From Calonectria ilicicola (Eukaryota; Ascomycota; Sordariomycetes; Hypocreales; Nectriaceae), in the NCBI GenBank assembly GCA_020809705.1, contig CP085825.1, positions 1,612,001-1,676,000 of the forward strand: a DNA stretch of 64,000 nt, read 5' to 3'. This document shows positions 27,026 through 60,527 of this stretch, piece by piece. The position numbers and the translations under genes are program-made. Under the pieces are notes generated by a model. It did no database searches, was not told the DNA's origin, and worked only from the letters and a program-made list of their open reading frames with translations. Numbering within the stretch: position 1 is the first letter of the stretch; every line of letters starts with the position of its first letter.

Positions 27026-28050
27026 TCATACATCATCCATCTGGCCCGCGGGCTCGTCATCGTCGTCGCCAAAGCTGGCGACTGAGGATAAATCGTCGTC
27101 GTCCTCGCTCTCGGCGCCAGCTTCGTCTGCAGCATCCTTGTTGGCATACTTTTGTACATATTCTATCCAAATCAGCACTGTGTCATGAGGTGAGGCAGAG
27201 AGCCCGTACCCTTGACCTTGGCATCATAGCTCTTCGGTTCCCTGATCAGCAAGGCAGCGGCCTCGCCGTTGAGGGGATCGGTGGGGTTGGGATATCGCAG
27301 AAGTTGGGGCAGGAAGACCTCGAAGATGTTGATCATATCGAACATCGGAGACCATGTCTGGTTGATGACGTCGAGACAGACTGATCCGGATCTAAGACAG
27401 CCTTCTTTAGTATTTATGGACCCAAATATGTCATTATTTCTTTTTGACTCTTGCCATAACTCACAGCTCATCAATATTGGGGTGGAAGATACGGTTCACA
27501 AATCCAATGCTAGGGGACTTGTACGGATAAGTGTCGGGGAGTTCGACGTGAACTTTCCAGATACCGCCCTCGAACGGAGCTGCCAGGTGTCAGCGGACAC
27601 ACCCAGTTGATGGAAGCTCTTTGTTTTACTAACTCTCGGCTGGACCCTTGAATCGAACGAAGAATTCTTGCCTAAAAGCGTCGGTTAGGCCGCGTGCGTA
27701 GGAGGCAGGCATTGAATGTCGGGCAGCATGAGCTTACACTATGCAATGTTAGCACAGGGATGCAAACAGAACCGGGTGGGATATTTACTATTGTCATTCA
27801 CCAAGGTGACCTCATAGTCACTCATAAGCCTGCGTTTGTTAGTATGTCGTTGCTGACGCTAGAGTATGGCGACATCGTACATCCTGTAACATTGTTAGCA
27901 TGCCTGCCTCTCAGAATGGACGGGACAGCGGTAATAGGCATACTTCATGACCTAAATAAGGATACATAGTCAGCTTTGGATACCGTCAACAACATTGCGT
28001 GGCGAATTTCGGCTTACATCGGTCTCGATCCTGCGGCGTGGGCTGCTCAT
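27026..28050 (-). CDS. UBC8: Ubiquitin-conjugating enzyme E2 (Ubc8/UBE2H) with nine exons
   Basis: Exons on the minus strand are 28050-28018, 27951-27944, 27883-27881 (3 nt), 27829-27789, 27738 (1 nt), 27671-27634, 27579-27465, 27391-27210 and 27162-27026. They give 185 residues. All introns are 47-73 nt with GT...AG ends, and those around the tiny exons have CTAAC branch sites. The protein begins '[19 protein letters not shown]' and continues '[15 protein letters not shown]', with the active-site Cys85 in '[13 protein letters not shown]' after 'HPNID'. It ends in an acidic tail. Register and length match yeast Ubc8 from Met1 to Cys85 only when both tiny exons are included. In yeast, Ubc8 works with the GID/CTLH ligase to degrade gluconeogenic enzymes. 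The acidic tail is typical of the subfamily. The identity is very secure. The exon structure is inferred from frame, splice signals and conservation. Confidence 0.9.
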
Positions 28051-59701: not shown

Positions 59702-60527
59702 ATGCCAGCCAAGGTCCCCCGCAACTTCCGCCTGCTGGAAGAGCTTGAGAAGGGCGAGAAGGGTCTCGGTGCCGAGGCCTGCAGTTATGGTCTCGAAGAT
59801 GGCGACGATCTCCTCATGACCAACTGGAACGGAACCATCCTTGGACCTCCTCATGTAAGTCTAACATTTATCTAAAGCCCTTGTTGGAGGATGCCGCATC
59901 TGGCGCCAATATCGGATCCAAAGCCCTGCGACATCCCGTGATGCAACTCTGGTACCGGGAGTCAGATACAATCAAGACGGGAACCTATTTCAATCTCACC
60001 ACCGCTATGCCTCTAAAGAGAAAAAAAAAGTCCTCAAATCAGAAAAAAAATATTTCATTCTTGTCTCCAAGTGGAAACAGCGCTTCACTCTTTATTTCCC
60101 CTCCCCGCCATTCCAGCAAATCCACCTGCTAACCACAGCGTCGCCGCTCCCGAATCTACAGTCCGTCTACGAGAACCGCATCTACAGTCTCAAGATTGTG
60201 TGCGGCGAGCACTACCCCGACCTCCCCCCGACCATCAAGTTCAACACAAAGATCGTCCTTCCCTGCGTCGACCCCGTCACTGGCGACGTGAAACACAGCG
60301 GCTTGCCCTGCTTGGCCCAATGGAAGCGAGACAACACCATTGAGACCATCCTCATTGAGCTGCGAAGGTTCGTCGCGTCCACATCCGAAAACATACTTCC
60401 CACTCCTGTTGGAAGCACGGCGGCTGGATAAATCTAGAGACAATACTAACACGCGCGCGAGAACAGATTCATGGCCTCTCCCCCCAACAAGAAGATTCCC
60501 CAGCCTCCAGAGGGCGAGGAATTCTAA
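59702..60527 (+). CDS. MMS2: Ubiquitin E2 variant Mms2/UEV1
   Basis: Exons 59702-59854, 60162-60367 and 60467-60527 give 139 residues, the usual UEV size. Junctions keep frame ('TILGPPH' to '[10 protein letters not shown]', and 'IELR-R' to '[10 protein letters not shown]'). The fold is that of an E2, but the stretch where the active-site cysteine and its surroundings should lie reads '[15 protein letters not shown]', without the 'HPNI..G.ICLD' motif. It therefore cannot form a thioester itself. Mms2 pairs with Ubc13 to make Lys63-linked ubiquitin chains on PCNA for error-free bypass of DNA damage. The '[16 protein letters not shown]' N-terminus, which contacts Ubc13, is intact. Intron 1 is unusually long (307 nt) for this window. 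The C-terminus 'PQPPEGEEF' is typical. Confidence 0.92.

Follow-up and report, generated by a model that had tools for sequence, protein, structure and literature searches.

The window, a 64,000-nucleotide stretch of Calonectria ilicicola DNA, carries a gene on the minus strand at 28050-27026 that is predicted to encode a 185-aa UBC8/UBE2H protein. The coding region is read as nine exons of 33, 8, 3, 41, 1, 38, 115, 182 and 137 nt, separated by eight introns, every one of them GT-AG. Three tiny exons, of 8 nt, 3 nt and 1 nt, stand among the first five. The predicted features, in order of transcription, are:

28018..28050, minus strand: exon 1, 33 nt
27952..28017, minus strand: intron 1, 66 nt, GTAAGC...TTTAG
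27944..27951, minus strand: exon 2, micro-exon GTCATGAA, 8 nt
27884..27943, minus strand: intron 2, 60 nt, GTATGC...TACAG, with CTAAC
27881..27883, minus strand: exon 3, micro-exon GAT, 3 nt; last base of K14 and two bases of M15
27830..27880, minus strand: intron 3, 51 nt, GTACGA...CGCAG, with CTAAC
27789..27829, minus strand: exon 4, 41 nt, ending AAT A
27739..27788, minus strand: intron 4, 50 nt, GTAAAT...CATAG, branch site CTAAC
27738..27738, minus strand: exon 5, the putative 1-nt exon T, second base of the Met29 codon
27672..27737, minus strand: intron 5, 66 nt, GTAAGC...TTTTAG, branch site CTAAC
27634..27671, minus strand: exon 6, 38 nt, starting G CAA GAA TTC
27580..27633, minus strand: intron 6, 54 nt
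27465..27579, minus strand: exon 7, 115 nt
27392..27464, minus strand: intron 7, 73 nt
27210..27391, minus strand: exon 8, 182 nt, starting within SGSVCLD; holds the presumed active-site Cys85
27163..27209, minus strand: intron 8, 47 nt
27026..27162, minus strand: exon 9, 137 nt including the stop; acidic tail

The predicted product is a UBC8/UBE2H E2 enzyme, with a UBC fold and with Cys85, which we take to be the catalytic residue. It matches the Pfam family UQ_con (7e-39), and its best PDB matches are yeast Ubc8 (8pmq, 2.8e-70) and human UBE2H (8pjn, 2z5d). NCBIfam, a prokaryote library, assigns it to no family. Yeast UBC8 works with the GID/CTLH ligase. Over a 153-residue tail, the closest proteins among the matches listed are from Thelonectria olida (99.3%) and Ilyonectria destructans (98.7%), which makes an origin in the Nectriaceae likely; a search for 5.8S rRNA had no match. 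No second copy of the UBC8 region was found in the genome. Elsewhere in the window, about 32 kb off, another UQ_con match (60156-60386, plus strand, 1.4e-10) indicates a further E2-type gene.

A sequence-only reading of this DNA had proposed that exon 5 consists of a single nucleotide, and base by base its anatomy is accurate. Exon 4 ends AATA at 27789 and GTAAAT follows; the acceptor CATAG, the T at 27738, the donor GTAAGC from 27737 and the first G of exon 6 at 27671 all lie where they were placed. Thus, one base is flanked by splice sites that are whole on either side, an acceptor upstream and a donor downstream (CATAG/T/GTAAGC). The flanking introns are 50 and 66 nt long, and each has its CTAAC, which a script placed 10 and 13 nt from the end of the respective intron. 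Joined as A+T+G, the message would read AAT ATG CAA, or N-M-Q. The residue was said to be conserved in yeast Ubc8, and it does align without gaps to Met29 of 8pmq; human UBE2H has Leu at this position and one residue fewer just before it. A direct join of exon 4 to exon 6 gives the predicted frameshift, with 68 codons to a stop, ahead of Cys85. All other exons join in frame. What that reading overlooked are the 3-nt exon (27883-27881), the 8-nt exon (27951-27944) and the existence of in-frame alternatives with one intron.

Could the signature have arisen by chance? The window has a single match to CTAAC N3-22 AG N GTAAG, the one at this site, against 0.02 expected. The 117-nt stretch was shuffled 20,000 times with dinucleotides preserved and ends kept, and searched for a branch site, acceptor, one base and donor with at least 45 nt on either side; a comparable signature appeared in 1 of the 20,000 shuffles, and in none of them with T as the single base. 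Genome-wide (70 Mb), there are 33 matches to CTAAC N3-22 AG N GTAAGY versus 134 to a reversed control pattern, and therefore the motif alone predicts nothing. The case for a one-base exon rests on signature, frame and conservation together. Thirty of the 33 matches were inspected as loci; one is UBC8 and two overlap each other. For 16 loci picked by eye, mostly for flanks that lack one continuous frame, 29 flanking open reading frames (at most one per side) were compared with Pfam. These 29 frames, from 16 of the 33 matches, support no further one-base exon in the genome, although the test is weak, single exons being short. The sole Pfam match comes from a branch-AG-N-GTAAGT signature at C9:720971-720991 (L039), where a nearby frame weakly resembles a putative cyclase (PF04199, below the cut-off).

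Is the one-base exon forced? Splice paths between the anchors LMSDYEVTL and FVRFKGPAE were enumerated under these rules: one or two introns per path, none shorter than 35 nt, each with an AG acceptor and either a GT or a GC donor. Fifteen paths are open and in frame, five with one intron and ten with two. The path through the one-base exon is the only one of the 15 that gives VNDNMQEF, and the only one of the ten two-intron paths without a GC donor. It also scores best, at 372.5 bits, when compared with a profile from which Pezizomycotina are absent, built on 17 outgroup proteins; the other 14 in-frame paths score 351.7-361.1 and direct skipping 48.9. With the same profile, leaving out the 3-nt exon lowers the score to 364.7 bits, a loss of 7.8 bits. 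The earlier argument that the exon is forced thus holds for frame and conservation combined; it does not hold for frame alone, since in-frame one-intron alternatives exist. The T at 27738 is needed for both the frame and the conserved residue, as skipping it directly shifts the frame and no other path yields NDNMQEF. A product that includes the exon would have the junction AATATGCAAGAATTC, and the junctions AATAAATTC and AATAGCAAG would be at odds with it.

Among the alternatives, a single 122-nt intron (27788-27667) ending at the acceptor GGCAAG, with its last base at 27667, has to be weighed. It joins AATA to AATTC and gives VNDN-K-FFV in frame, with K replacing M-Q-E, so that no one-base exon is needed. 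This path exists and stays open, and K-F begins the junk sequence in 12 genome models, e.g. Fusarium avenaceum P0013 and Penicillium P0152 and P0158. It falls 15.4 bits below the one-base-exon path on the outgroup profile, however, and the K-FFV form is found in 0 of 54 open reading frames from unannotated contigs. It also leaves the AG/T/GTAAGC signature without explanation. The GGCAAG acceptor sits five bases past TTTTAG, and AAG is a weak acceptor. This explanation is highly improbable.

Do other Hypocreales share the exon, as could be checked in their genomes? Protein records provide an indirect answer. Three protein searches, from which the best 120 of 5,712, 5,032 and 5,634 matches were taken, yielded 216 non-redundant proteins, a sample from the top of each list and no complete survey. 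Two plant proteins were left out and 214 were sorted, 160 with an NCBI source and 54 without; P0058 and P0139 are NCBI-source proteins present in contig collections too. Taxonomic groups were presumed from genus names, with three checked. In the sampled genome models, codon 29 and its surroundings are intact in 0/42 Hypocreales, 8/36 other Sordariomycetes, 0/5 Leotiomycetes plus Geoglossum, 5/40 Dothideomycetes, 2/10 Eurotiomycetes, 4/5 of a lichen-group set and 0/5 Pezizomycetes. Altogether, 19 of the 143 Pezizomycotina models sampled are intact and 124 are not. No Orbiliomycetes occur among the names of the proteins in the best 120 per search. The stretch is intact in all 17 outgroup models (Taphrinomycotina 3, Saccharomycotina with Lipomyces 11, Basidiomycota and Chytridiomycota 3) and in 54/54 uninterrupted open reading frames from unannotated contigs. 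Where it is not intact, 105 of the 124 models keep EVTL-V/I-NDN and diverge directly after, and 19 diverge before NDN. The 19 intact Pezizomycotina models may reflect intron loss in some lineages, or good annotation.

The 54 frames are 169-272 codons long, and their contigs measure about 0.9-3.3 kb (one is 7.3 kb, and two have no length given). They presumably stem from transcripts because they are uninterrupted, and such a frame would be impossible without splicing in the gene of the window. The count of 54/54 is in part a product of selection, as intron-interrupted frames had no chance of entering the best 120 matches; what counts is that such frames exist in many lineages, each with Met29. 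The DNA of relatives was also sought with P0007, one of these frames. The search of genome contigs gave 39 pattern matches and three distant loci only, all in archaeal or bacterial records, and in viral contigs there were five pattern matches, none confirmed.

Other junctions of the gene served as an internal control. Junctions 6-7, 7-8 and 8-9 are intact in 39, 40 and 39 of the 42 Hypocreales models, and junction 1-2, which abuts the 8-nt exon, in 30. For junctions 6-7, 7-8, 8-9 and 1-2, respectively, the counts are 136, 139, 125 and 107 of the 143 Pezizomycotina models, 52, 49, 43 and 46 of the 54 unannotated frames, and 13, 17, 4 and 17 of the 17 outgroup models, where the low values at 6-7 and 8-9 are taken as sequence differences outside the patterns used. 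The 3-nt exon is skipped, giving VMK-LMSD in place of VMKMLMSD, in 22/42 Hypocreales and 47/143 Pezizomycotina models but in 0/54 unannotated frames and 0/17 outgroup models; the form that includes it is found in 3/42, 47/143, 47/54 and 17/17. Model failures therefore cluster at the tiny exons.

These counts bear on two further explanations. An assembly or sequencing indel near a single ordinary 117-nt intron could make a one-base exon look necessary, and indels are a usual error of long-read assemblies. Yet models of related species are broken at the same codon in 42/42 Hypocreales, the stretch holds two complete sets of intron signals in an arrangement met once in 20,000 shuffles, and the remaining exons of the gene all join in frame. 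An indel is extremely improbable, and assembly error was rejected once the relatives' models had been counted at codon 29. An oddity of this genome alone was rejected as well, since the models of relatives break at the same codon; exon 5 is probably not private to this genome. Alternatively, the mRNA might lack the T and be rescued by ribosomal frameshifting at the junction, or the gene might be a decaying copy. The only point in favour is that skipping would be simple for the spliceosome. All 54 uninterrupted frames read Met-(Gln/Ser)-Glu-Phe without a shift, the genome has no second copy, and the rest of the protein is undamaged (UQ_con, 7e-39); this explanation is scarcely conceivable. The T at 27738 is thus very probably a real constitutive one-nucleotide exon of UBC8/UBE2H, and we infer that it is spliced in Calonectria ilicicola.

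Matched pairs of records illustrate the break. P0007, a frame on a 2,660-nt contig, and P0010, an Ilyonectria destructans model, are identical over the 153-residue tail. In P0010, 17 foreign residues stand where Met29 should be, with QEFF after them; P0007 is intact in this stretch. P0097 and the Lepidopterella palustris model P0177 form a second such pair. P0007 and P0113, both uninterrupted contig frames, start at Met13, as expected with retention of intron 1 or a late start of transcription. At a guess, the P0007 start fits retention, as in the window a TAG precedes GTC ATG; such starts may point to poor splicing efficiency at the 5' end.

Broken models often hold what appears to be translated intron, as read against the T of the window followed by GTAAGCTC. 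Six models, from the Fusarium oxysporum and fujikuroi groups, hold relics of the form C-K-L (TGT AAG CTN); VNDN-M-Y/F-A/V (ATG T(A/T)Y G(C/T)N) is present in nine, C-M (TGT ATG) in four (P0018, P0020, P0021, P0084) and S-V-C-P (AGT GTA TGC CCN) in four (P0017, P0027, P0029, P0083). These peptides are compatible with read-through, in three frames, of AG/T/GTAAG, GTATG or GTTTG/GTTCG, although they do not prove it. They make up 23 of 27 regular-expression matches among the 124 broken models; the other four (P0039, P0047, P0067, P0172) are probably due to chance. The M-Y-V relics would also be given by one retained intron with a donor after AT. In seven models (P0070, P0093, P0120, P0134, P0136, P0141, P0191), a single Arg replaces Met29, as VNDN-R-QEF or R-SEF. 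Here an extra mRNA base was possibly forced by the aligner onto a genomic G beside the splice site, which would amount to hidden RNA support.

How could such an exon be spliced? The best-supported reading remains the one first proposed, intron definition that removes both short neighbours of a constitutive 1-nt exon. The T would never be recognised as an exon, splice sites being paired over introns only 50 and 66 nt long. U1 coverage at a donor extends to an acceptor AG that ends one base before it. Introns 4 and 5 would probably be removed one after the other: the acceptor AG of intron 4 falls within the U1-covered stretch of the intron 5 donor, and the two should not be bound simultaneously. 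If intron 4 leaves first, the T would join exon 4 and rebuild a donor, AATAT/GTAAGC, for intron 5; the T and the rebuilt donor would then act like a recursive splice site, with one base left over. The half-spliced message would read AAT ATG TAA, with a stop. If intron 5 leaves first, intron 4 would be read in frame to the TAG at its end. Half-spliced forms would go to quality control and decay, because each meets an in-frame stop at or just after the site. Why would the exon persist? The codon is conserved, and presumably no single small mutation would remove the exon safely. Doubtful, though conceivable, is the further notion that the cluster of 8-, 3- and 1-nt exons has been a splicing bottleneck since the base of the Pezizomycotina, where inefficient or conditional joining sets the amount of functional E2, e.g. 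for glucose-dependent turnover via the GID ligase, with mis-joined forms passed to mRNA decay.

From protein records we infer the age of the exon. It quite likely dates to the base of the Pezizomycotina, because Pezizomycetes models fail at the codon (5/5) and the sampled outgroups do not. If that age is true, this would be the most widespread fungal one-base exon among those found described, in a conserved regulatory enzyme. Many public UBC8 models of filamentous ascomycetes are wrong at one codon (124/143 of those sampled). The exon could serve to benchmark annotation software, and its many host species would be natural replicates in a test of how a spliceosome copes when only one base separates acceptor from donor. 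More generally, a sharp, lineage-specific break in gene models can expose exons too small for aligners.

How does the UBC8 exon compare with known cases? Mitochondrial one-base exons involve introns of other kinds. They have been reported (PMC5436844, PMC12308204), and a Trichoderma paper describes work on fungal micro-exons as relatively limited (PMC11121469). The sequence-only reading had called one-nucleotide exons almost unknown and named the plant APC11 gene; that case stands, but the rarity was overstated, as VPS55 in plants and CYP621A in Fusarium are also reported. A handful of plant and fungal genes were already known to contain one-base exons, and the UBC8 exon is a new case, apparently distinguished by its likely age and by the regularity with which gene models fail. 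Among the open-access papers listed, a scope that leaves most subscription papers outside, UBC8/UBE2H is not named as a host of such an exon in any title or abstract opening.

Arabidopsis APC11, like UBC8 as predicted here, has a constitutive, frame-restoring 1-nt exon in a ubiquitin-pathway gene (PMC4674806). Its authors prefer intron definition with recursive splicing, and the successive intron removal proposed for UBC8 follows what is discussed there (PMC4674806). APC11 differs in being a plant gene, with the exon in a 422-nt stretch and reporter constructs tested (PMC4674806); the UBC8 exon is predicted from sequence. The plant VPS55 microexon is also 1 nt long and absent from annotations; it is conserved in land plants, with the donor GTRAGT, and unlike UBC8 some plant lineages have transcripts with and without it that make two proteins (PMC8831610).

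Stwintrons resemble the UBC8 pair as two short introns of filamentous ascomycetes removed in consecutive reactions, but they are nested (PMC12403724, PMC6616335). In a stwintron, a splice signal of the outer intron is interrupted by the internal one, and no exon base is left (PMC12403724, PMC6616335); both UBC8 introns, by contrast, are complete and one coding base would remain. A stwintron was rejected at this locus, as donor, branch site and acceptor are whole in both introns and no splice signal is interrupted.

The Fusarium CYP621A exon, reported in February 2026 as the first one-nucleotide exon in a fungal gene, with 18 SRA reads shown (PMC12940212), shares with UBC8 a nuclear fungal gene, 1 nt within a conserved motif and the arrangement AG/N/GT. 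Model failure is common to both; nearly all CYP621A gene models are wrong at the exon, and the authors name one transcript as right (PMC12940212). The two differ in that the CYP621A base is a G in a Gly codon of a P450, with 20 Fusarium orthologues and reads behind it, whereas the putative UBC8 base is a T in the Met29 codon of an E2, with model breakage across the Pezizomycotina.
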